A stretch of 31,882 bases of DNA from a virus: IMG/VR virus record IMGVR_UViG_3300044991_000084, positions 1 to 31,882 of that record. One strand, written 5' to 3'. This document shows positions 5,977 to 28,469 of this stretch, piece after piece (position 1 is the stretch's first letter; every line of letters begins with the position of its first letter). A program made the translations under genes and the position numbers. The notes beneath the pieces are model-generated. The model did not search any database. It saw only the letters and a program-made list of their open reading frames with translations, and was not told the DNA's origin.

Positions 5977-7358
5977 AACTATTAGAGTATGACTGGCCGC
6001 GACCACACGGCTTCACCCCGTTCGATCATCAGAAGACCACCGCTGAGTTTCTAATTAGCAACCGCAAGAGCTTTTGCTTTAACGAGCAGGGCACAGGCAA
6101 GACCGCATCAGTGATTTGGGCGGTGGATTATTTGATGAAAGTTGGAGTAATTAGCCGAGTGCTTATTGTTTGCCCATTGTCGGTGATGAAGGCCGCATGG
6201 CAAGAAGATCTCTTTAAGTTTGCTCTGCATCGCACAGTAGCTGTAGCTCACGGCGGAAGAGAGAAACGCAAAGAAATCATTAACGGACTTGCTGAGTTTG
6301 TTATCATTAATTTTGATGGCGTTGAGATCGTTAAGAAAGAAATCATGGCGGGTGGGTTTGATCTCATCGTGATTGATGAAGCGTCTGCGTACAAGAACGC
6401 ACAGACCGACAGATGGAGAACCATGCGGGACATTACCAAAGTGGTTAAGGGTCTGTGGATGTTGACGGGTACGCCAGCGGCTCAGTCGCCTGTGGATGCT
6501 TACGGATTGGCAAAGCTTGTGAACCCCCAAGGTGTGTCACCTTTTTTTGGTCAGTTCCGCGACACAGTCATGCACAAGATCAGTGACTATCGTTGGATAC
6601 CTAAGCCCACTGCGGAAGCAACTGTACACAAAATACTTCAGCCTGCTATCCGGTTTGAGAAAGCCGACTGCCTTGACTTGCCCGAGGTTACTGCTGTTGA
6701 CAGAGAGGCCCCACTCTCGCCACAGCAGATGAAATACTACAACATACTCAAGAAGCAGATGTTAATTGAGGCAGCAGGAGAAGAGATTACAGCTATCAAC
6801 GCCGCAGTAAAGCTCAACAAGCTCTTGCAAATCTCAGGTGGCGCAGTGTATTCAGACACGGGCGAAGTGATTGAGTTTGATGTGTCTGATCGCCTCAAAG
6901 TAATTAAGGAAGTGATTGATGAGTCAAGCCACAAGGTGCTCGTGTTTGTTCCGTTCACGCACACGATTGAGTTGTTAACCAAATACTTAATTAAGAACGG
7001 CATTACATGCGATGTCATTAACGGGGCTGTGTCTGCTAACAGACGTGCAGAGATTGTCAAAGAGTTTCAGACACGGGATAACCCTAAAGTGCTTGTCATC
7101 CAACCGCAAGCGGCATCACACGGGTTAACACTGACTGCGGCTAACACTGTTATTTGGTACGCTCCCACCTCCAGTGTCGAAACGTATCTGCAAGCAAACG
7201 CACGCATCGACAGGCCCGGCCAACGCAATCCAATGACTATCGTACACATACACGGAAGCCCAACGGAGAAGCGTTTATATGCTTTGTTGCGTAACAACGT
7301 AGCGAACCATAACAAAATAATTGATTTGTACAGAGAAGAATTTATAGACGCCTCTTGA
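5973..7358 (+). CDS. SNF2-family (SF2) DNA helicase/translocase
   Basis: The 461-aa ATPase has the order typical of compact phage SNF2-like helicases: N-terminal Q-like region 'FTPFDHQKTTAEFL', Walker A 'GTGKT' (40-44), 'VLIVCPLSVM' (motif Ia), Walker B 'VIDEAS' (DEAS 135-138), motif III 'LTGTP' (165-168), then a second RecA lobe ('HKVLVFVPFTHTIELL', 'SHGLTLTAANTVIWY') and motif VI 'QANARIDRPGQ' (R411, R414). It probably remodels replication or recombination intermediates beside the polymerase; such SNF2-PolA pairings are known in virioplankton. AAGGAACG precedes the start. Its stop codon TGA lies inside the -35 box of the next promoter. Confidence 0.93.
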   Translation: MKLLEYDWPRPHGFTPFDHQKTTAEFLISNRKSFCFNEQGTGKTASVIWAVDYLMKVGVISRVLIVCPLSVMKAAWQEDLFKFALHRTVAVAHGGREKRKEIINGLAEFVIINFDGVEIVKKEIMAGGFDLIVIDEASAYKNAQTDRWRTMRDITKVVKGLWMLTGTPAAQSPVDAYGLAKLVNPQGVSPFFGQFRDTVMHKISDYRWIPKPTAEATVHKILQPAIRFEKADCLDLPEVTAVDREAPLSPQQMKYYNILKKQMLIEAAGEEITAINAAVKLNKLLQISGGAVYSDTGEVIEFDVSDRLKVIKEVIDESSHKVLVFVPFTHTIELLTKYLIKNGITCDVINGAVSANRRAEIVKEFQTRDNPKVLVIQPQAASHGLTLTAANTVIWYAPTSSVETYLQANARIDRPGQRNPMTIVHIHGSPTEKRLYALLRNNVANHNKIIDLYREEFIDAS

Positions 7359-7367
7359 CAATGTCAA
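7355..7367. promoter_or_regulatory. Operator-like palindrome over the -35 box (site 2)
   Basis: TTGACA-A-TGTCAA is a perfect 6+1+6 palindrome covering the -35 box, and the counterpart of TTGACAAAGTCAA at 1541-1553. Both are followed 16 bp after TTGACA by an identical TATATT. This site is the more symmetric of the two. A bound dimer would block RNA polymerase. Confidence 0.5.
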
Positions 7368-7382
7368 AAGTGGTGTTATATT
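7355..7382 (+). promoter_or_regulatory. Sigma70-type promoter for the SSB/primase operon
   Basis: TTGACA (7355-7360) and TATATT (7377-7382) are 16 bp apart, the same boxes and spacing as the 1541 promoter. The helicase stop codon (7356-7358) is embedded in the -35 box. The expected start point is near 7389, which is the first base or two of the 5' strand of the leader's closing stem. Confidence 0.8.
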
Positions 7383-7387
7383 AGAGT

Positions 7388-7488
7388 TGTGTCGCAGTGA
7401 TGGGTAACGGGTTAGCGCCGTTGCAGACGTTAAATGTTTTGAAACAATCACACTGCTTTATGTGAACTGTCACTGCGACACATTTAAC
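7388..7488 (+). ncRNA. Structured leader RNA: 3-way junction with pseudoknot
   Basis: A perfect 13-bp inverted repeat, TGTGTCGCAGTGA (7388-7400) and TCACTGCGACACA (7470-7482), closes a domain that extends three more pairs (U7401-G7469, G7402-U7468, G7403-C7467). Inside are P2, 7404-7410 with 7418-7424 (one G-U pair, 7-nt loop), and P3, 7448-7452 with 7461-7465 (8-nt loop). The 23-nt segment between them contains GTTAAATG (7429-7436), fully complementary to CATTTAAC (7481-7488). Six of these pairs (7429-7434 with 7483-7488) are compatible with the closing stem, giving an H-type pseudoknot that stacks on it and ends 4 nt before the AGGAG site (7493-7497). RNA should start at the first stem base. 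I do not recognise a known riboswitch class. Structure is read from sequence; function is inferred. Confidence 0.7.
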
Positions 7489-7503
7489 AATTAGGAGAAT
7501 CAG

Positions 7504-7926
7504 ATGGAAGAAGTTGAAGACAAAGTCACCTCCGTAGACTTGGACAGATTGACCTCAATCTATATCAAGATACGCGACAAGCGGGCGGCAAACAAGAAAG
7601 TGTTTGAAGCCGAAGATCAAGACCTCGAAGAGCAGATGAAAGTGTTAGCACAAGAGATGCTCGACGTATGCAAAGACATGAATGCCGACAGCATTCGCAC
7701 CCCACATGGCACGATCATGCGTTCAATTAAGTCACGGTATTGGACAAACGATTGGGATTCAATCTACGGTTTTATTGAAGAGACCGGAGCATTTGGCCTG
7801 TTAGAAAAAAGACTTCATCAAACAAACATGAAAGACTTTCTCGCTGAGAATCCAGACCTTTATCCCAAGGGGCTAAATGTCGAAAGTGAATACACCGTGG
7901 TAGTTAGACGTTCTAAAGAAAGCTGA
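7504..7926 (+). CDS. Gp157/Gam-like coiled-coil phage protein
   Basis: The 140-aa protein has a long N-terminal helix with coiled-coil character (about residues 12-58: 'VDLDRLTSIYIKIRDKRAAN'...'LEEQMKVLAQEMLDVCKDM'), then a beta-rich part 'TPHGTIMRSIKSRYWTNDWD' and a C-terminal 'LEKRLHQTNMKDFLAENPDL' ending in 'EYTVVVRRS'. This layout resembles phage Gp157/Gam-like proteins found beside SSB and recombination genes, some of which protect DNA ends from host nucleases. The function here is inferred. AGGAG (7493-7497) precedes the ATG, directly downstream of the structured leader, so this is the gene whose translation the leader could control. It is separated by 2 nt from the SSB-like gene. Confidence 0.75.
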   Translation: MEEVEDKVTSVDLDRLTSIYIKIRDKRAANKKVFEAEDQDLEEQMKVLAQEMLDVCKDMNADSIRTPHGTIMRSIKSRYWTNDWDSIYGFIEETGAFGLLEKRLHQTNMKDFLAENPDLYPKGLNVESEYTVVVRRSKES

Positions 7927-7928
7927 AA

Positions 7929-8819
7929 ATGAGTAACATTACAATCCTCAACGAAGACCTCCCCGAATTCTTGCAAACCGCAGGAGTTAGCGACCTTACA
8001 CGACAACTCGCTGGTCGTACCGGAGTCAAACGCATCGTGCCTAAGAATGGCATCTTCCGTAAGACAGTCGGCGGCGAAGAGATGGGCAAGGTCAAAGGCA
8101 ACGTGAATGCCGTCATCGTTAACGCATCCCCTGCTGTTGGCCGTATCTTCTACGCTAAACAGTGGAGCCCTGATGCCGAGCCGACTGCACCTGATTGCTT
8201 CTCTAATGATGGGCGTGCACCCGATGCAGGCTCAGCTAACCCACAAGCAGATCGTTGCGATAGTTGCGGTCAGAATATCAAAGGCTCAGGCCAAGGTAAC
8301 TCTAAGGCTTGCCGCTATTCACGCCGCATTGCGCTTGTGTTGGAAGAAGACTTCGGTACATCACTTGAAGGTTCAGTCTACCAAATGAACTTGGCATCCA
8401 AGTCTTTGTTTGGTGAGAGCGTAGGCGATAACACGCACACGTTTGAAAACTACTCTAAGTACTTGTCCAACAACGGCAAGAGCTTGGACTACGTTATAAC
8501 GCAAATTAGTTTTAACGAAGACAATGACAACCAGTCTGTGTTGTTTACGCCGACTAAGTACATTAACAAGACGCAGTACGCTGTGACTAGCAAAGTGGCT
8601 AACACCCCTGAAGTGCTGAAGATGGTCGTTATGACACCATACCAAGCAGACATGTCAGGTAAGCCTGCTAAGTTGGAAGCACCCGCCCCCAAAGCAGAAG
8701 CCCCCGCTAAAGTTGATCCAATCGACGAGCCAATCAAGCGCCCCGCTAAGACTGCGCCTGCACCTGTGACCAAGAAGGATTTGGATTCCGTGGTGAAGGC
8801 TTGGAGTGACGAGGAGTAA
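7929..8819 (+). CDS. Putative single-stranded DNA-binding protein with Cys4 site
   Basis: The 296-aa protein has an N-terminal domain with conserved-looking 'RIVPKNGIFRKTVGGEE', a Cys cluster (C90, C110, C113, C128: 'APDCFSNDG', 'RCDSCGQNIKGSGQ', 'ACRYSRRIA') and a beta-rich middle. It ends in an Ala/Pro/Lys linker (about 245-280) and an acidic tip 'WSDEE'. A folded core, flexible linker and acidic tip is the usual plan of SSB proteins, and the position between a Gam/Gp157-like gene and the primase-helicase fits. I do not see a canonical OB-fold signature, so SSB is an inference. The Cys4 site may bind zinc, as in T4 gp32. The ribosome binding site is weak (AAAGAAAG). Confidence 0.7.
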   Translation: MSNITILNEDLPEFLQTAGVSDLTRQLAGRTGVKRIVPKNGIFRKTVGGEEMGKVKGNVNAVIVNASPAVGRIFYAKQWSPDAEPTAPDCFSNDGRAPDAGSANPQADRCDSCGQNIKGSGQGNSKACRYSRRIALVLEEDFGTSLEGSVYQMNLASKSLFGESVGDNTHTFENYSKYLSNNGKSLDYVITQISFNEDNDNQSVLFTPTKYINKTQYAVTSKVANTPEVLKMVVMTPYQADMSGKPAKLEAPAPKAEAPAKVDPIDEPIKRPAKTAPAPVTKKDLDSVVKAWSDEE

Positions 8820-8822
8820 CGC

Positions 8823-9071
8823 ATGACCTATGGTTATAGCCAGAGCTTGGTGCACGCAAATAAAAAAGCAAGCGTCAAGTCTCTGGGTGTGGCCTTGGGT
8901 CGTGTATGTATCCGCGAAAACATAAGCGTTAGCAAGATTGCAGATGACTTTGGGGTAACCCGAATGACTATCTACAATTGGTTTAAGGGGGACTCAGTCC
9001 CCTTTCATTCCTACGATCAAGCGATTAGCGATTACATACTCTACCTTAAAGCCCACCATCAACTGAAATAA
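8823..9071 (+). CDS. HTH (XRE-like) DNA-binding protein
   Basis: The 82-aa protein carries a clear helix-turn-helix at residues 34-56 ('ISVSKIADDFGVTRMTIYNW') followed by 'FKGDSVP', like XRE/Cro-type or MerR-like minimal regulators. GAGGAG in the end of the SSB-like gene serves as its ribosome binding site. Being inside the operon driven by the 7355 promoter, it could be the dimer that binds the palindromes at 1541 and 7355 as autoregulator, or a replication accessory protein; nothing in the sequence settles this. Confidence 0.78.
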   Translation: MTYGYSQSLVHANKKASVKSLGVALGRVCIRENISVSKIADDFGVTRMTIYNWFKGDSVPFHSYDQAISDYILYLKAHHQLK

Positions 9072-9075
9072 ATAA

Positions 9076-11916
9076 ATGTCCCACTTTGACCTGCTAGATG
9101 CCGTACTACCCACAGAGGGTCGGTACTGTGTGTTTGGGCTAGGGAAGTATCCAGATCAGAAGTTTTACGATACAAGAGCAGAAGTAGATGAGCAGATTGA
9201 GACGCTAGTAAGCAACAAGTTCGATGTGTTTTTTGGTTGCGCCAAGTTTGGCCCGCTCAATAACCGCACACACGAAAACGTTGCCTATGTTCGCGCACTG
9301 TGGATGGATATTGATTGCGGCCCCACGAAGGCTGTACCCGATGAAAAGGGAGTTATCAAAGGTTACATTGACCAAGCCACAGGTCTTGCCGAGTTTAAGA
9401 AGTTCTGTAAAAACGTAGGGTTACCACAACCGATTTTAGTTAGTTCAGGCTACGGCATCCACGCATACTGGTTGCTAGAAGAGACCATAACTCGCACAGA
9501 TTGGGAACCCCTTGCAAACCGCCTTCGTGAGTTGTGCGTAGAGCAAGGATTCATTGTTGACCCTGCTGTATTTGAAGCATCCAGAGTACTGCGTGTCCCC
9601 GGCACATACAACTTTAAAGCTGAACCGGTAGAAGTAACGGTTCTTAACGAAGTCACTCAGCGTATGACCTACGCACAAGTGAAAGAGCTACTCGGCGCAC
9701 CGGATGCGGAACCGGAAGACGAGCGGCCAGACTTTATACCGCGCACCATGAGTCCTTTGATGGAATCGGTGATGCAGAATAAAGTGAAGCGATTTAAAAC
9801 AATAATGCTGAAATCAGCGCAGGGCGAAGGTTGCAACCAACTGATGCACTGCTACGAGAATCAAGCCACACTCGACTACAACTTATGGCGCTCAGCGCTT
9901 TCGATTGCAACTTTTTGCATCGACCGAGATTCCGCAATACACAAAATGTCTGCGGAGCATCCCGACTACGACCGGTTTAAGACCGAGTACAAAGTTGATG
10001 ACCTGCAACGCACGGGTGGGCCGCATCACTGCGCTACCTTTGAGAAGCAGAACCCCACGGGTTGCGAAGGGTGTAAACACAAGGGCAAGATCAAATCACC
10101 AATCATGCTTGGTGTGGAGATCGAGGAAGCCGAAGACGAAGATTACGATGTTGTAATCAAAGCCGAAGACGGTGAGGTTGAGACAGTACGCATACCTGAG
10201 TATCCATTCCCATTCTTCAGGGGTAAAAACGGCGGCATCTACCGCAGGCCCGCAACTGACGAAGCAGAACCAGACCTTGTGTATGAGCACGACCTGTACA
10301 TCATCAAGCGGCTAACAGACCCCGATATTGGGGAGACATTGCTATTCCGATTGCACCTACCAAGGGACGGCATGAAAGAGTTTGCAATCCCACTCGGAGT
10401 ACTTTCATCAAAAGACAAACTGCGGGAAGCACTAGCGTCTAAGGGTGTGGGCTTGTTTAGTAAGCAAGTTGACCTCATGTGCGTATATGTGATTACAGCG
10501 GTTAAAAATTTACAAGTTATGCGGAAGGCAGATATTATGAGAACACAGTTTGGTTGGGTCGATAACGATAGCAAGTTCATTCTTGGCGATAGAGAGATTA
10601 CAAAAGATGGCGTGTATTACAGTCCGCCCTCACACATTACCAAGGCGGTAGCCGAGCACCTTAACGAACACGGTGACTTTGAGAAGTGGAAAGAAGTCTT
10701 CAACATGTACGCGCAGCCCGGCCTTGAGCCTCATGCTTTTGCGGCGCTGACGGCCTTTGGTTCACCACTGCTTAAATTCACCGGCATGTCTGGTGCAATC
10801 ATCAACTTGATTCACAGTAGCTCAGGCTCGGGTAAGTCGACAGCGTTGTTTATGTGCAACAGTGTATGGGGTCACCCCGTTAAGAACGCCTCGATCTGGA
10901 AGGATACGTTCAACGCAAAGATGCACAGGCTTGGTGTGATGAACAACCTGCCCAATACAATCGACGAGATTACGAACACTAGCCCTATGGAGTTCTCTGA
11001 CCTGTCGTACAGCATCTCTCAGGGTCGGGGCAAGAACAAGATGCGTGGCTCGGTCAACGAGGAGCGGGTTAACTTAACTAGCTGGAATGGGATGACCTTA
11101 ACGTCCTCAAACGCTAGCTTCTACCAAAAGCTTGGCGCGGCAAAAGATTCCCCCGATGGCGAGTCCATGCGTCTACTTGAATATGAGATCAAGCCTAACA
11201 ACCTGATTGACGTGCAAGTCGGCAAGCAAATGTTTGACCACCAACTGCGGGAGAACTACGGGTTTGCCGGTGAGATTTACGCCCAGTGGCTTGTTAACAA
11301 CTTGGAAGACGCCAAAGACTTAGTGCGTAAGATTCAGGCTAAGCTCGACAAAGAAGTTAAGTTCACACAGCGTGAGCGTTTCTGGTCAGCCGTAGCCGCC
11401 TGTAACATTGCCGGTGGCCTAATCGCTAAGAACCTACAACTGCACGACTACGACATGAAGGCTGTGTACGACTGGCTTAAAGGCATGCTCGGCGAGATGC
11501 GTGAGGATATTAAGCCCCCAATCAGCAACCCTGCCTCTACGCTTGGTGAGTTTATCAACGGCAATATGAACCACGCTTTGGTTGTCAATGGTGAGAATGA
11601 CGCACGGAGCAACATGATCCCTATGCCGACTATGGAGCCAAAGGGTGAACTGCTTATACGCTACGAGCCGGATACCAAACTGTTATGGATTGCGGCCAAA
11701 TCGTTCAAAGACTTTTGCGTTCAGCGCCAGATTAACTACAAAGATTTACTTAAAGAGCTAAAAGAGGCTAATGTATTTAAAGAAGCAGTCAACAAGCGTA
11801 TGGCTAAAGGCATGAAGGTTGTGTCCCCCGCAGTGCGTGCCTTGATGTTTGATGCGTCTCGGTCTGATTTTATTCACATAGATACACCCGATGAAAATCG
11901 AGACAGTTCACTATGA
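9076..11916 (+). CDS. AEP primase-polymerase fused to helicase
   Basis: The 946-aa protein has an N-terminal archaeo-eukaryotic primase-like domain: 'ALWMDIDCG' (D78, D80), 'SSGYGIHAYWLLEE' (S124, H129) and 'VDPAVFEASRVLRVPGTYNF' (D162, R170). A Cys/His zinc site follows ('PHHCATFEKQ', 'GCEGCKHKGK'). The C-terminal half is an ATPase with Walker A 'SSGSGKST' (582-589) and a following 'TIDEITNTSP' Walker-B-like motif, matching the DUF927/D5-like phage helicases. It would synthesise primers and unwind DNA at the fork. No Shine-Dalgarno is visible before ATG 9076 (AAATAAATAA), so it probably relies on coupling to the HTH gene ending 4 nt upstream. Confidence 0.9.
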   Translation: MSHFDLLDAVLPTEGRYCVFGLGKYPDQKFYDTRAEVDEQIETLVSNKFDVFFGCAKFGPLNNRTHENVAYVRALWMDIDCGPTKAVPDEKGVIKGYIDQATGLAEFKKFCKNVGLPQPILVSSGYGIHAYWLLEETITRTDWEPLANRLRELCVEQGFIVDPAVFEASRVLRVPGTYNFKAEPVEVTVLNEVTQRMTYAQVKELLGAPDAEPEDERPDFIPRTMSPLMESVMQNKVKRFKTIMLKSAQGEGCNQLMHCYENQATLDYNLWRSALSIATFCIDRDSAIHKMSAEHPDYDRFKTEYKVDDLQRTGGPHHCATFEKQNPTGCEGCKHKGKIKSPIMLGVEIEEAEDEDYDVVIKAEDGEVETVRIPEYPFPFFRGKNGGIYRRPATDEAEPDLVYEHDLYIIKRLTDPDIGETLLFRLHLPRDGMKEFAIPLGVLSSKDKLREALASKGVGLFSKQVDLMCVYVITAVKNLQVMRKADIMRTQFGWVDNDSKFILGDREITKDGVYYSPPSHITKAVAEHLNEHGDFEKWKEVFNMYAQPGLEPHAFAALTAFGSPLLKFTGMSGAIINLIHSSSGSGKSTALFMCNSVWGHPVKNASIWKDTFNAKMHRLGVMNNLPNTIDEITNTSPMEFSDLSYSISQGRGKNKMRGSVNEERVNLTSWNGMTLTSSNASFYQKLGAAKDSPDGESMRLLEYEIKPNNLIDVQVGKQMFDHQLRENYGFAGEIYAQWLVNNLEDAKDLVRKIQAKLDKEVKFTQRERFWSAVAACNIAGGLIAKNLQLHDYDMKAVYDWLKGMLGEMREDIKPPISNPASTLGEFINGNMNHALVVNGENDARSNMIPMPTMEPKGELLIRYEPDTKLLWIAAKSFKDFCVQRQINYKDLLKELKEANVFKEAVNKRMAKGMKVVSPAVRALMFDASRSDFIHIDTPDENRDSSL

Positions 11917-12085
11917 GGTTAACTGGGCCAAGTTCCGCAAAGGGTACTCGTTTTTTGTACCCTGCATTGATACAGCAAAAGCTAAAGCGGAACTTGACCG
12001 AGTGGCCCGCCGACTAAAGATGGATCTACTTACGAAAGTAGTCATAGAAGACGGCATAAAAGGTTTGCGAGTGTGGAGGCTTTAG
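11891..12085 (+). CDS. Small conserved-looking phage protein, unknown function
   Basis: The 64-aa protein begins 'MKIETVHYEVNWAKFRKGYS' and ends 'VVIEDGIKGLRVWRL'. The alternating pattern 'FFVPCIDTAKAKAELDRVARRL' suggests a small alpha/beta fold. It starts 26 bp inside the end of the primase-helicase gene in another frame and is the last gene before the operon terminator. No Shine-Dalgarno is clear, so re-initiation after the primase stop is likely. I do not recognise a named family; the pairing with a primase-helicase suggests a replication-fork accessory role, as inference only. Confidence 0.75.
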   Translation: MKIETVHYEVNWAKFRKGYSFFVPCIDTAKAKAELDRVARRLKMDLLTKVVIEDGIKGLRVWRL

Positions 12086-12144: not shown

Positions 12145-12174
12145 ACCCCCGGCTAATCCCCGGGGGTTTTTTTA
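12145..12174 (+). terminator. Rho-independent terminator closing the plus-strand module
   Basis: CCCCCGG (12146-12152) pairs with CCGGGGG (12160-12166) around a 7-nt loop, followed by seven T (12167-12173). The T-run overlaps the stop codon of the convergent minus-strand gene (12172-12174). On the minus strand no T-run follows the hairpin, so it appears to work mainly for plus-strand transcripts. The 60 bp before it hold only short inverted repeats (CTAAA-C-TTTAG at 12087-12097; GTCGG/CCGAC at 12100-12119). Confidence 0.88.
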
Positions 12175-22427: not shown

Positions 22428-25400
22428 TTAAGCTCCTTGCCTTATGATTTCTGCAATTTCTTCAGGAGTCGCAGCGTTGTCGCTTGACCCTTCAATCTTT
22501 TTAAGCAATTCTTCGATGTCATTTTCGTCGGTTTTGCCCTTCTGGGCAAGTGCTTCTTCCTCAATCTTTTCACCTTCAGCACCGGCTTTGGTAACGCTCA
22601 GCGCCTTGTATTCTTCTTGCTCCAACTGGCCTTTCTTGCCAACCTTCTGTTTCTTAGACCCAAATTCTTTGCCGTAGTAGAACACGTTGGCCAATTGAGG
22701 TACGCCAAAAGTACCTGCAAGTGCGGTAGCTTGAGGCCAAGTTAAACCCGTTTGCTTACTTGGAACCTTTGGATTCTTAGGCGGCTTAGGCGGCGGTGAC
22801 TTAGTTGGATCAGCAATAATTTTATCAATAATTGGGTCATCTATCAGGGTAGTAACCTTGTCAATTACGTCATCGTCTAAGTCGTCAATGATGTCGTCAA
22901 CCTCTGCTTTTGTTTTAACTTCGTCCTTAGTTTCAACTTCTGCTTTAGTTTCGGTCTTGGTTTCAGCTTTGGTTTCAGCTTCGGTCTTGGTCTCAGCTTC
23001 GGTCTTGGTCTCAGCTTTGGTTTCAGCTTCGGTCTTGGTCTCAGCTTTGGTTTCAGCTTTAGTATCTGCAACTACATCTGCCTTAGTGTCAGCTTTAGTA
23101 TCTGCAACTACATCTGCCTTAGTGTCAGCTTTAGTATCTGCTTTAGTGTCTGCAACTACATCTGCCTTAGTGTCAGCTTTAGTATCTGCTTTAGTGTCTG
23201 CAACTACATCTGCCTTAGTGTCAGCTTTAGTATCTGCTTTGATGTCTGCAACTACATCTGCCTTAGTATCTGCTTTGGTGTCAGCCTTAGTATCTGCTTT
23301 GGTGTCAGCCTTAGTATCTGCTTTGGTGTCTGTAAGCACATCTGCAACAGTGTTAGCTTTAGTCTCAGTTAACCCCGCAGTTTGTAGCTCAGAAACTACA
23401 TCAGCTTTAGCGCCAACCGTAGCGTCAGCTTTAGTAGCGTTTTCAATTTTAGTTGCTAACGACGTTGCCGTTTCATCTGAAACTTTAAGCCCAAGATCAG
23501 CCATAGTTTGCTGAGCCGTATCAACCGCAGTGGTTGTACCCGTAGTTGTTTTGTTAGACGTAATAGCGTTTAGGTCAGCAACGGTTACGCTCTCGCCCTT
23601 AGCGTTTGTGCCAATGACCGCAGACGTATCAACCTTTACTTCGCCTGAAGTTTTACCTGTTGCCGATTCACCAAGCAGCTCGGCCAGAGTTACGGGTTTA
23701 CCCTCAGAATCTGTAGCTACAACTTGGTCACCGTTAAGTTTTGTAACACCTAAGTTATCAAGTGTCTCTTTGCTACCTAAAATTTGGTCGCCAATGATTT
23801 CATTAGACGCAGTAATGGACTGATCTTCTGTAAGCCCAGCATCTTGTAATTGCGTAATGAGCGTATCAGACGCATTGCTTGGAGAAGTGCTGTTCTTTAA
23901 CGTAGTTGCCGCAGTATCCGCAACAGACTTAACTTGGGTCTCGGACAACCCAGAGTCTTGAAGCGCTGAAACAGTAGAGTCGGCGGCGCTAATAGTCGCC
24001 GTGGTTTTGCCGCCAATAACTGCTTCCCATGCGCTTGTACCGGCAATCTTAGTCCAGTTTAAATCATCGTCGGGTTTGATTATTTTTTGCGTACCGCCTT
24101 CAATAATGCCAGCTTCTACGCCTTCTCCAGTACCTTCTTTAACACCCACTTTAGCGGCAGTTGTGGCTATTTCTTTTGCGCCAACTTTACCTGCGGTATC
24201 TCCAAAAATTTGTTTGGTCAGTGCGTTACCGCCGGGAACTAAATTGAGTGTACCTGTAGTTACTGCACCAAGAGCTAGCGCCTTTTGTGACGCAGTTTGA
24301 GCGTCTTTGTCCGACATGCCAGCGTCTTTTGCGCGTTTGTAAGCATCTTCAGCAGCACCGCCACCTGACTCCATCATGTCTAAAACAACTTCGGTAGAAA
24401 TACCTAAAGCCCTAGCAATTCTTGGCGCTGCGCCAACTAATTTAGCCGCAGTAAGCACGCCCCCAGATGCAAGCAGTTGCGTGCCTTCTTGAAGAATTTC
24501 AGACGCTACGTTATAGGCTACAAACCCGGGGTTACTAACAATTGTTTTACCTACAACAGCCAAAGCTTCCCAGCCATCTTTAGCAGCGGCCATGTTTTTA
24601 TTAAAGTCCGAGCTAGCAGCCTTCATTTCTTCTGGCGTTTTAGCTTTAGAAAAAGCAGCGTAATCACTAACAGCTTGATCTACCGTACCGCCACGTTCTA
24701 AAACGTTAATAGCTTTAAGAGTACCCGTAACAAATGAAGCAATTTGAGATGTTGAGTCTACTGCTAACGCACCAGCATACTCGGCAATCTTGCCGCGCTC
24801 AGACAAATTCATACTGCCACCGGTCACATTGCCGTTTGCGTCGTATTGAACATCATTTACGTAGCTACCACCGTTGTCGGCATTGGAAGTTTTAAGCGCG
24901 GCAATTCGTGCAGCGGTTGCATTAAGTGAAGCGTTACGGGCGGCTGTGTCATTTTGAGCGGCTACTGTTTTACCCGCATCAGTAATTGTGGCTAGGTTAG
25001 ACTGATTAATTGAAGCAATCTTTGCATCAGCTTTTTTCTCTGCTTCGGTGGCCGACTCGGTTGTGTATTTACCTGTTACGCCCGTCGCAGGGTTAGTCCA
25101 TTCAAAAGTTGTATTGGGCCCAAAGGCTAAGCGATTAGCAGCATAAACGTCTTTAAAAGACGCGGCCTTTGTACCAGCGGCTGTGTTTTTATCAATAGCA
25201 CCTTGCAAATCACCGAACTCAGTGTCCTCGGTTAAGCCCGCATTTTGAAGATTTGTTACAACGTCAGTGCTCGCAGTGCCCGCAGCGCCAATTTTGTCAA
25301 CCTCTTTCATGGCGTCAAAATCTGCTTGGGTTTTTGCGTCAACGCCACTTAAAGTCACGCCGTTCCCAGCATCAGACACTACGTTATTAACAACACTTGC

Positions 25401-28400
25401 TAACTGAACGCCATCGGTTGTTGCATTGCCGTCTGTTAATCCAGCGTTAGCCAAAACATTTGTAACGTCGGTGTTCTGCAACGTAGTGTTATCCACTACG
25501 TTAGTTTTAGTATCGCTTGTATTGGTTGTCGTTGTTGATTGATTAGACGCTTGAAAAGCGTTACCAAACGTTATGCCAGCTTGAATAATATTTGTTTCGT
25601 TACCACTCTTAAGCGCGTCAACCAAGTTCTTTGCAGAAGCCGCGACGTACAGGTCTTTACTGCCAGTCAGGTCGCCAAGAGAAACCAAAGCGGCTGAAAG
25701 GTTGTCATCTTTAATTGCAAGTGCTAAGTTTGCGGCTTGAAAAGCTGTTGTGACGCCTGATGGAAGTGTTCCACCAGTTTGACCGTACGCTGACAAACTT
25801 GCGTTAATAACACCAGCAATGTTTTCAGATTGAAGAGCGGCAACCCCAGAAATGGCTGTCTGGGCGAGCTTGACGTTTGATACCGTGTTTTGCAAATCAA
25901 GAATTCGCGAGGTATTGACAATGTCTCCAGCGGCTTCTGCTGTTTTCAGCGTTGACAACTCGGTTCCAGCAAAAGAACCAGCCGCATTTAAGCCACTCAG
26001 CACAGCGCCAAGGTAGTTCTTCTGCTCTATAGCTAACGCCGCATTTGCCATCATTGCAAAGGGCTGGTGCGGCCCCGGGATCATGGCGGCAATCGAGATG
26101 ACCATTGGCCCCATCTCGCTTACAAATCCGTATATTCCTGTTTTTTCTGAAGTTGCCGTGAGGTATGGCGTACCGTCTTCTGTAAACTTTACATTCAACC
26201 AATTCTTTCTACCCTTTAAATGGCCACCGCTTCTTTGATAAGCTAATTGACCTGAGATATCAGTAAGCTCTGCACCAGTGTCTTTGTCAATGACAACGCT
26301 ACCAATTTTATGTTGGTAAGTTCCATCTTTAAGTGTTGCCAACTCCGCCTCAGACAACGGCACAACTGAGACGGTGGAATTCTCTCCACTGCCTTCGAAG
26401 ACGTGCTTAAAGTATTTTTTTGTAACTTTAGAAGGGTCAACTTTTTCATACGACGTGGGGTTGCCTTCCGCGTCCGTTATTGGCACAAGGTATTCATTGC
26501 CCTGCTTAATAACTGGTTTACCATCAGCCATGAAAAATTGTTCAAATGCCGATGTTGTTGTAAACTTGTCTTTCTGACCAAGGTCACCAATAGTGTCTAA
26601 ACCTTTTTTGACAAGTAGCGCGGCGGAGTTCTCCAAGTCGCCAAACACACCTTGGAAATACTGACCGCCTAGTGCGTTCCTCTGAGCGTTTAGTTGCTGA
26701 AATAAATTTTCTGACTGGATAGCGTCAGATCCATACGCACTCCACTTTGTTTCAAGTTCTGCAATCTTGTTCTCGTATCCAGTCAAAGCACTGCCATACA
26801 ACTTGTCAATGGCTGAATTTGCCTTTGAGCTAATTACGAAGTCTTTAAGTTGCTGAGTGGTTGAGTCCGTGTTGTTAGCAATTTTTGAAAAGTCTGTCTC
26901 AAAGTTTCTGACGGGGTTCAGGCTGTTCTGAATAACCTTAACATCAACGCCAGTAGCTTTTGCAATGTCATCATCAGTAAAGCCAAACTGTTTCTCTAAA
27001 GCGTAACTAGCAATTACCCTGTCAGCATCTGTTAAAACGTTCGGGCCTGTGAGGGTATCGTTGATGATTTTGTTGCGGTTGGTGTCGTAGCTTGTTAAAA
27101 GAGTATCAAACAGAGACTTGTCTTTACCCGTCAGGTCGGCAAGTTGTTGTGAGTTATACCCAAGATCACGAGCTAATTTGGAAACTTTTTGCGACTCTTC
27201 AAACGTTGCGGAGTTGTCTGCAATAATGTCGTTAATGCTTGTGGTTGTAGTAGTTTTAAGTTGATCTTTGTACTGGTTATATAAAGCTTCACCAAGAGTT
27301 GCTTTTAAACCAGCATCGCTAATGCCAAGATCTTTGGCGTATTTAAAACCAGCTAACGAATTAACACCACCCGCGCCAAATGCACCAGACAACTCTGCGG
27401 CGGCGGCAGTACGGAACTTCTCCCGCTCAGAGGCGTCAATCTCGTTACCAAAACGGTCTCTCCAGTATTTCTTTCCCTCTTCCTCTGCAATTCTTCCCGG
27501 CCCCATAAATTCGCTGTACAAATCTTGAATTCGGCTATCCAGTTCTGCTTGCGCCGCAGTTTCAAATATTGCGCGATCTTCTGGGCTAATCTCAGAACCA
27601 ACCGCTTTAAACCAGTCTGCTAAACCTTTAGCATCAGGTTTACGTCCCAGCACGTCTTCGTACAGACTAACAATACCTGAAACCGCAGCAGGTTTGGTAT
27701 CTGTTAGATAGTCCGTGACATAAGTACTGTATTTATCTTCAGGATTGCTTGATAGGTAGTCAACAACAGCGGCTTGAAATGTATTGTTTAAATCCTCTGG
27801 TTTGATTTGCCCAGTTTCCAAAGCCGCAGTCCATGCGTCAAGACTTTCTTTATCAACGTTGGATGCTTCAGTACCGACCCCTGTACGCCCAATAGAAGCG
27901 TAGCGATCCAACACCATTTGTCTATAGTTAGGTTGTACTTGTGTGTCTACAGTAGCCACAAGATTGGGGGCTAGTACCGCTTGTTCTTCTACAGACCGGT
28001 TGGCAAGTTCTGATTGGGCGGCTTGCAAGAAGTCAGCTTTTTCCGACTCATCTACAGTAGGCCCAAATGCGTTTTCCCAGAATGCCTTACCACCTGCATC
28101 TGATGGACGACCAAGAATGGTTGTATACAAATCCTCAACCGTCATATCAGACTCAGGAATAGACGCAATGTAGTCGTCTACTATGTCAGTAGTTTTTGCG
28201 GTGGGAGTTTCAACAGCGGCGGCGCTTGTATCAGCAGGGGTGGTTACAGCGGCAGGGGTGGTTACAGCGGCGGGAGTTTCAACAGCGGCGGGAGTTTGAA
28301 CAGCGGCAGGAGTAGTGGCTGGTCGATACGGGGCTAAAGTAGACGCAATTGCAGCATCATCTAAACCCATACCCCTTAATGTTGTCAGCAAGTCATTGGT

Positions 28401-28469
28401 AGCATCCCGCCCACCAAAAACGTCATACACGTCTTCATAAGCATTAGAAAAATTTGTTGGTAATGCCAT
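22428..28469 (-). CDS. Giant virion protein: DUF4214-like units and KADT repeats
   Basis: The 2,013-aa protein begins 'MALPTNFSNAYEDVYDVFGG', has an Ala-Ala-Val-Thr-Pro repeat (about 51-76), then three DUF4214-like units near 109-155 ('VEDLYTTILGRPSDAGGKAF'), 265-311 ('LYEDVLGRKPDAKGLADWF') and 312-360 ('IQDLYSEFMGP...YWRDRFG'), with a weaker one around 185-240. A hydrophobic stretch lies near 790-815. A Thr-Lys-Ala-Asp/Glu repeat fills about 1713-1850, and the acidic C-terminus follows a basic Pro/Lys segment. DUF4214 occurs in bacterial surface and secreted proteins, but its role is unclear. In this late operon a virion or ejection role is likely. No catalytic motif is seen. The ribosome binding site is weak. 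Confidence 0.8.
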   Translation of the reverse strand: MALPTNFSNAYEDVYDVFGGRDATNDLLTTLRGMGLDDAAIASTLAPYRPATTPAAVQTPAAVETPAAVTTPAAVTTPADTSAAAVETPTAKTTDIVDDYIASIPESDMTVEDLYTTILGRPSDAGGKAFWENAFGPTVDESEKADFLQAAQSELANRSVEEQAVLAPNLVATVDTQVQPNYRQMVLDRYASIGRTGVGTEASNVDKESLDAWTAALETGQIKPEDLNNTFQAAVVDYLSSNPEDKYSTYVTDYLTDTKPAAVSGIVSLYEDVLGRKPDAKGLADWFKAVGSEISPEDRAIFETAAQAELDSRIQDLYSEFMGPGRIAEEEGKKYWRDRFGNEIDASEREKFRTAAAAELSGAFGAGGVNSLAGFKYAKDLGISDAGLKATLGEALYNQYKDQLKTTTTTSINDIIADNSATFEESQKVSKLARDLGYNSQQLADLTGKDKSLFDTLLTSYDTNRNKIINDTLTGPNVLTDADRVIASYALEKQFGFTDDDIAKATGVDVKVIQNSLNPVRNFETDFSKIANNTDSTTQQLKDFVISSKANSAIDKLYGSALTGYENKIAELETKWSAYGSDAIQSENLFQQLNAQRNALGGQYFQGVFGDLENSAALLVKKGLDTIGDLGQKDKFTTTSAFEQFFMADGKPVIKQGNEYLVPITDAEGNPTSYEKVDPSKVTKKYFKHVFEGSGENSTVSVVPLSEAELATLKDGTYQHKIGSVVIDKDTGAELTDISGQLAYQRSGGHLKGRKNWLNVKFTEDGTPYLTATSEKTGIYGFVSEMGPMVISIAAMIPGPHQPFAMMANAALAIEQKNYLGAVLSGLNAAGSFAGTELSTLKTAEAAGDIVNTSRILDLQNTVSNVKLAQTAISGVAALQSENIAGVINASLSAYGQTGGTLPSGVTTAFQAANLALAIKDDNLSAALVSLGDLTGSKDLYVAASAKNLVDALKSGNETNIIQAGITFGNAFQASNQSTTTTNTSDTKTNVVDNTTLQNTDVTNVLANAGLTDGNATTDGVQLASVVNNVVSDAGNGVTLSGVDAKTQADFDAMKEVDKIGAAGTASTDVVTNLQNAGLTEDTEFGDLQGAIDKNTAAGTKAASFKDVYAANRLAFGPNTTFEWTNPATGVTGKYTTESATEAEKKADAKIASINQSNLATITDAGKTVAAQNDTAARNASLNATAARIAALKTSNADNGGSYVNDVQYDANGNVTGGSMNLSERGKIAEYAGALAVDSTSQIASFVTGTLKAINVLERGGTVDQAVSDYAAFSKAKTPEEMKAASSDFNKNMAAAKDGWEALAVVGKTIVSNPGFVAYNVASEILQEGTQLLASGGVLTAAKLVGAAPRIARALGISTEVVLDMMESGGGAAEDAYKRAKDAGMSDKDAQTASQKALALGAVTTGTLNLVPGGNALTKQIFGDTAGKVGAKEIATTAAKVGVKEGTGEGVEAGIIEGGTQKIIKPDDDLNWTKIAGTSAWEAVIGGKTTATISAADSTVSALQDSGLSETQVKSVADTAATTLKNSTSPSNASDTLITQLQDAGLTEDQSITASNEIIGDQILGSKETLDNLGVTKLNGDQVVATDSEGKPVTLAELLGESATGKTSGEVKVDTSAVIGTNAKGESVTVADLNAITSNKTTTGTTTAVDTAQQTMADLGLKVSDETATSLATKIENATKADATVGAKADVVSELQTAGLTETKANTVADVLTDTKADTKADTKADTKADTKADTKADVVADIKADTKADTKADVVADTKADTKADTKADVVADTKADTKADTKADVVADTKADTKADVVADTKAETKAETKTEAETKAETKTEAETKTEAETKAETKTETKAEVETKDEVKTKAEVDDIIDDLDDDVIDKVTTLIDDPIIDKIIADPTKSPPPKPPKNPKVPSKQTGLTWPQATALAGTFGVPQLANVFYYGKEFGSKKQKVGKKGQLEQEEYKALSVTKAGAEGEKIEEEALAQKGKTDENDIEELLKKIEGSSDNAATPEEIAEIIRQGA
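22921..23331. repeat. 12-nt/48-nt nested tandem repeat in the 2,013-aa gene
   Basis: A 12-nt unit encoding TKAD (left part: TKAE/TEAE variants) is repeated throughout. From about 23040 to 23330 it is organised in larger 48-nt units encoding VVADTKADTKADTKAD. Copies differ by single synonymous changes. The repeat explains the long Val/Ser/Ala-rich opposite-strand ORF here. Confidence 0.9.
28236..28312. repeat. 18-nt tandem repeat near the 5' end of the 2,013-aa gene
   Basis: Roughly four to five copies of an 18-nt unit (GGGGTGGTTACAGCGGCA and variants, plus-strand reading) encode the AAV-T/E/Q-TP repeat at about residues 53-76. Variants keep the frame. Confidence 0.8.

Follow-up and report, generated by a model that had tools for sequence, protein, structure and literature searches.

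The window, a 31,882-nt stretch of viral DNA, carries a replication operon on its plus strand, and the leader RNA of this operon is the subject of our analysis (Table 1). The family to which PHROG assigns the first gene product is labelled 'minor head protein', a label that is doubtful because the gene adjoins primase genes. The product of the second gene gave no significant sequence match to a solved homologue or SSB, and in a PDB fold search with a low-confidence model (pLDDT 57) the best hit was PrgE, an SSB-type protein, at a non-significant E of 0.38; we use the name SSB-like provisionally. No strong internal terminator was found in the operon. Elsewhere in the window, a 2OG-Fe(II) oxygenase gene (PF13640; 3981-4568) lies amid replication genes, and the minus strand encodes a 2013-aa protein (22428-28469) with long degenerate C-terminal repeats of the TKADTKAD/ETKAETK type.

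Table 1. Features of the leader RNA and of the operon that follows it; positions are those of the window
Feature	Positions	Strand	Basis and remarks
Promoter	7355-7382	+	-35 TTGACA 7355-7360, 16-nt spacer, extended (TG) -10 TATATT 7377-7382
P1, 5' strand	7388-7403	+	fold; pairs with 7467-7482; starts at the predicted +1
Covariance model R1 match	7396-7474	+	54 bits, E 4.5e-13
P2 hairpin	7404-7424	+	stem 7404-7410/7418-7424; near-invariant loop core GGUUAGCGC 7410-7418
Kissing-loop strand 1, AGCG	7414-7417	+	partner 7454-7457
V, hypervariable segment	7425-7450	+	P3 hairpin in some copies; contains GTTAAATG 7429-7436
P4 hairpin, CAC-UGCUUUAU-GUG	7451-7464	+	near-invariant
Kissing-loop strand 2, UGCU	7454-7457	+	partner 7414-7417
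P1, 3' strand	7467-7482	+	fold; covariation
AGGAG Shine-Dalgarno of the first gene	7493-7497	+	sequence
First operon gene, 140 aa, function unassigned	7504-7926	+	ORF; PHROG 13900, E 8.5e-24
Second gene, 296 aa, SSB-like at most	7929-8819	+	PHROG 27714 (function unassigned)
DUF927-type primase/helicase	9076-11916	+	homology
Intrinsic terminator after the plus-strand gene cluster	12145-12167	+	terminator scan

The leader contains a perfect 13-bp inverted repeat (7388-7400/7470-7482) that the fold extends inward by three additional pairs (7401-7403/7467-7469), exactly as the original prediction had read it from the letters. The 95-nt element at 7388-7482 folds at -41.0 kcal/mol, compared to a mean of -24.3 for shuffled sequences (z -5.9), and none of 200 dinucleotide shuffles folded as well. 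The original prediction was right that this is a selected, structured leader RNA. In a consensus scan the window promoter matched 11 of 12 consensus bases and placed +1 at ~7388-7390, the first base of the P1 stem. Because this near-consensus promoter lies directly upstream, the transcript should start at the first stem base. The earlier suggestion that the RNA begins already paired is thus supported, by promoter prediction only, and the first transcribed nucleotides would be paired as they are in 5'-terminal stabilising stem-loops. A search of the leader against Rfam 15 yielded nothing at the gathering threshold and nothing meaningful up to E 10, in agreement with the earlier remark that it fits no known riboswitch class. 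We conclude that the element at 7388-7482 belongs to an RNA family that seems not to have been described before; we name this family X.

The members of this new family are structured RNAs of 75-110 nt that Burkholderiales phages carry. Their outer stem (P1), which varies freely, encloses a junction; P2, a variable segment (V) and P4 extend from it, and the loops of P2 and P4, GGUUAGCGC and CUGCUUYAUG, respectively, are near-invariant and kiss. We built the covariance model R1 from 23 non-leader copies of X; it retrieves 108 copies in 100 loci and matches the window copy, which has P1, P2, P4, both loops and the kissing pairs AGCG:UGCU. Among 107 distinct copies, 95.9% of cells were paired, 15 of 18 pairs had changed on both sides, and double-change cells numbered 564 versus 168 in shuffled alignments; the covariation score was 0.722, compared to 0.161 after shuffling and at most 0.17 with slid partners. 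As this alignment was fitted to the model, copies that had not been selected for pairing were tested separately. In 62 such independent copies the four loop-adjacent pairs of P2 reached 0.98, 0.92, 0.85 and 0.82 (0.66, 0.52, 0.44 and 0.41 with the strands re-dealt), and the P1 stem of independent unselected copies scored 11.1 versus 4.25 in the control. The P2 stem showed double changes in five of its six pairs, and P1 covaried at all nine modelled positions, so that the compensatory changes in the outer stem that the original prediction had named as a check do occur. G-U cells greatly outnumbered A-C cells (100 versus 20, junction pair excluded); therefore the structure is selected on the transcribed strand. 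V ranges from 17 to 43 nt, and V segments are common to unrelated contexts (for instance L271 and the window clade), which suggests, from the sequences, that X has been exchanged as a module between contexts. Other scans of X copies and their neighbourhoods for known RNA families, ribozymes and riboswitches included, found none.

A pseudoknot-type contact does exist in X, and it differs from the one proposed earlier: it joins the P2 loop to the P4 loop (7414-7417/7454-7457). In 33 aligned copies the pair 7414-7457 was A-U in 26 and G-C in 7 and was never mispaired; it adjoins three unvarying pairs. A variant scan, in which a base other than U was required at the fourth P4-loop position while its partner was left free, yielded five genuine X copies, all with G for A in the P2 loop. 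The same joint change of A to G and of its partner was seen in the loops of two prophage copies (L311 and L312). No change turned up when the second kissing position was scanned, and this pair, being unvarying, is uninformative. The kissing helix also includes an invariant G-U. Two further compensated changes occur in Achromobacter, where the top pair of P2 has changed from G-C to C-G and a P4 pair from A-U to C-G.

The contact originally proposed, between GTTAAATG (7429-7436) and CATTTAAC (7481-7488), fared differently. Both segments are present and complementary in the window, so that this part of the proposal stands. Across 49 homologous leaders, however, the segment was on average no more complementary to the downstream region than shuffled sequences were (mean z -0.23); 11 of the 49 reached p<=0.05, and the window's own allele gave 0.05-0.08. 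The segment lies in the hypervariable part, and conserved pairing of the 7429-7434/7483-7488 type, named as a check on the proposal, is not seen across the relatives. The same numbers show that pairing of the leader with the Shine-Dalgarno region, as expected of a translational switch, is not conserved. Moreover, X lies 17-900 nt from very different genes; this variation in distance makes a Shine-Dalgarno switch unlikely, and the variety of downstream genes makes a gene-specific switch unlikely, so that the earlier idea of a translational switch of this operon is improbable. We also considered an anti-Shine-Dalgarno role for V. Of 73 clusters, 12 contained 6 nt or more of the 16S 3' end, compared to 4.2 in shuffled sequences, an excess that is real but confined to a minority and that does not represent the function of the family. 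In this minority (e.g. L026, L028, L033, L065 and L080) the variable segment carries CCUCCUAA or CUCCUUUC, resembling the 3' end of 16S rRNA, and in some leaders it could pair perfectly with ATTAGGAG of the downstream gene.

Relatives of the first two operon genes are numerous in IMG/VR (at least 597 for the 140-aa gene and 398 for the SSB-like gene). The order common to their leaders is promoter, P1, P2 with the loop GGGTTAGCGCC, V, the P4 block CACTGCTTYATGTG, the second strand of P1 and the Shine-Dalgarno sequence. P1 varies in sequence while its complementarity is always kept, and the P2 and P4 blocks, 25-42 nt apart, are invariant in 122 of 122 homologous loci, Y excepted. When 80 distinct homologous leaders were compared, X was present in 62 and absent from 18. 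The X-less leaders keep the promoter and the ribosome site; in ten of them a simple hairpin near +1 takes the place of X, and the other eight lack a stable 5' hairpin. Judging from the ten, a 5'-terminal stem seems to be the feature that is retained. Even near-identical phages differ in the presence of X (L008, L099, L100 and L102 versus L001), indicating that it is dispensable and was recently gained or lost.

A two-block pattern search detected X in at least 120 IMG/VR stretches and, in a set of 84,980 species genomes of bacteria and archaea, in six contigs. These contigs belong to Curvibacter, Achromobacter, Variovorax, other Burkholderiales-type MAGs and one Armatimonadetes MAG. With R1, copies were found in 6 of 401 species genomes of the Curvibacter family, in 2 of 399 of the Achromobacter order and in 2 of 369 of the Achromobacter class; the Achromobacter genome itself contributes to both of the latter figures. 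X is abundant in freshwater viromes, and a record usually contains one copy and sometimes two. When several copies were searched with their flanks by blastn, no match was found in named phages or plasmids, and a literature search for the motif sequences returned only unrelated matches. In Achromobacter dolens (L282 3813-3896, minus strand) two copies, separated by ~100 nt, run antisense to a pair of lysis-type genes, and in the second of them both loop-closing pairs are swapped with compensation.

We then related X to promoters, terminators and genes. In 22 promoter matches the -10 box ended 0-11 nt before P1, compared to ~0.8 matches per 6-nt bin elsewhere; counted by record, ~20 of 89 independent contexts had a promoter at P1, with the end of the -10 box 2-11 nt ahead of the stem, and 15 of these lay outside the leader class of the window. 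X is therefore often the first thing transcribed. As a promoter is visible at P1 in only about a quarter of contexts, X may also act inside transcripts. In non-leader cases the next large gene was co-directional with X in 68 of 83 (68:15), and terminators were found upstream of X in 26 of 100 cases and downstream in 7 of 100. The downstream genes fall into 49 clusters, including the large and small terminase subunits, DUF1376 replication proteins, ParB-like proteins, DNA polymerase, primase and the 140-aa/SSB pair, and in L258 and L312 X lies directly upstream of tRNA genes. X is thus optional, and the transcripts that it heads include early, late, replication and tRNA ones alike. A terminator followed X within 60 nt in 6 of 23 GC-rich prophages and phages versus 0 of 93 AT-rich phages (of which two had a downstream terminator at all), and the GC-rich pair of X and terminator sometimes preceded terminase or other late genes. 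In the GC-rich Comamonadaceae contig L312 (5582-6096, minus strand) the tRNA-Met behind X is followed by a permuted tmRNA (RF04321), whose tag reads ...SSKKSVALDAAFA, and by further tRNAs.

Several other RNA modules came to light. One is a second recurrent hairpin (acgcatggggattga ... tcaatccccagccgtgttggt, with a variable interior), which many freshwater phages carry in tandem with X ahead of their terminase genes (L183 5335-5430; L242 9560-9630; also L182, L240 and L261); the structured RNA modules there form arrays. Two phages (L183 5135-5232; L242 9984-10065) have a third cassette (ggcaggtatgaagtcggtcatggcgaat...ctgggttcgaaaccaacgtgtacggcgcttcatcccgatgctctgtgc, including the T-arm-like GGTTCGAAACC), which caps a different stem in each, as if inserted into hairpins. 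Finally, an RNA of ~130 nt has its own TTGACA/TATAAT promoter and a long-range stem, GCCGTTTACA...TGTAAGCGGC, with a run of U behind it (L242 9720-9872; L175 1795-1960 in reverse-strand numbering; L267 6075-6210); further unannotated structured RNA lies downstream, and no Rfam match was found.

What could such a module do? The purine-riboswitch-type architecture consists of an outer stem and two hairpins with kissing loops. X shares this plan but differs in that it has no Rfam match, that its loops and not its junction are most conserved, and that no common metabolic gene lies downstream. According to the original prediction, a leader pseudoknot would let the SSB-like product repress its own operon, as T4 gp32 does by binding a 28-nt pseudoknot together with UUAAA repeats in its own leader (PMC535899). 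The T4 leader is likewise a structured phage leader ahead of a DNA-replication gene, the SSB-like gene is second in the operon of the window, and 11 of 49 leaders can pair V with the Shine-Dalgarno region. However, the proposed pairing is not conserved, and X, which is far larger than the T4 recognition element, has another fold and lacks the UUAAA repeats on which the T4 operator depends. X is also not tied to an SSB gene: it heads many unrelated operons, most of them SSB-free, and close relatives without X keep the operon and the SSB-like gene. Autoregulation by the SSB-like product is hence not general, and we regard it as highly improbable. We give equally little credence to X as a DNA-level element, with the RNA a mere by-product of a mobile hairpin or protein site. 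Its clean presence or absence between near-identical leaders, the sharing of variable segments across contexts and its location at melted promoter starts would suit such an element, whereas wobble pairs kept on the transcribed strand only, the invariant G-U of the kissing helix, the lack of target duplications and the low copy number speak against it.

Our leading explanation, which we hold tentatively and at less than even chance, is that X is a domain at the 5' terminus that acts in cis, sealing the 5' end, docking a host factor and most likely promoting survival of the phage transcript. X would act on the RNA that it heads: P1 would bury the 5' end and leave the RppH/RNase E route little access to the 5'-triphosphate, and the rigid core of kissing loops would offer an invariant surface to a host factor, either the decay machinery or, as for HK022 putRNA, RNA polymerase. 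The most likely effect would be a longer-lived transcript, and in the window X would raise the output of the replication operon (7504-12085). The 5'-end protecting element mentioned in the original prediction is thus still a live reading. The 5'-terminal stem-loops that stabilise bacterial mRNAs by blocking RppH/RNase E access resemble X in that the stem starts at +1, and simple hairpins near +1 replace X in relatives, for which reason we favour a clamp with a docking core. A mere 5' clamp, in contrast, would not need the near-invariant kissing-loop core of X; P1 alone would protect, so the loops need a partner. The eight of 18 X-less leaders without a stable 5' hairpin count against protection and show that it is not essential, and an immediate terminator behind X, as in the GC-rich cases, suits a free-standing RNA or an attenuator better than a stabilising domain.

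To our knowledge, it is very rare for a structured RNA to act on host machinery from the very beginning of a phage transcript, put being the textbook case. The putRNA of HK022 (~70 nt) needs no phage protein, pairs from +3, occurs twice per genome and binds RNA polymerase at its beta' zinc-binding domain (PMC9378689). X could be a nascent RNA of this kind, folding immediately on being made, binding the host RNA polymerase and enabling it to resist pausing and termination along extended early and late operons. We consider this reading possible though not probable. X and putRNA are phage RNAs of similar size, at or near transcript starts and of narrow host range; X usually has one or two copies per phage, compared to two per genome for put, heads both early and late operons, and in several GC-rich phages (L311, L436/L441) is followed directly by a terminator, with co-directional genes beyond it. 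Nevertheless, the action on RNA polymerase is known for putRNA and only proposed for X. Antitermination through nearby terminators was considered and set aside, as these are not generally enriched downstream of X and are almost lacking in AT-rich phages; the operon of the window has no strong internal terminator, and close relatives do without X. The folds differ too, since put consists of two stem-loops and only X has the enclosing P1 and the kissing helix. We place the 5'-terminal clamp with its docking core slightly ahead of put-like antitermination, and the two are hard to separate. In a bolder form, about which we are slightly more doubtful, X would be a protein-free device of Burkholderiales phages that, once the first 100 nt exist, engages the host RNA polymerase in the act of transcription, or some other core machine of the host, and reprograms it over whole early and late operons: a structurally unrelated second solution to the task of putRNA, based on a junction with kissing loops and passed between phages as a module. 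It is unlikely that X is instead a free-standing functional RNA (a decoy, trans-acting small RNA, ligand-binding aptamer or self-cleaving ribozyme) riding on convenient transcripts. It is location-independent and optional, has a near-invariant core on free stems, shares variable segments between unrelated contexts, forms units of ~120 nt with a terminator in prophages and adjoins tRNA genes; yet it strongly prefers +1 and co-direction with the next gene, most copies lack a terminator of their own, and there is no match to known ribozymes or riboswitches.

X is naturally present or absent in near-identical phages, which provides ready-made controls. Finding the partner of X would reveal a new RNA-only control of polymerase or of mRNA decay, or a new RNA interaction between phage and host.
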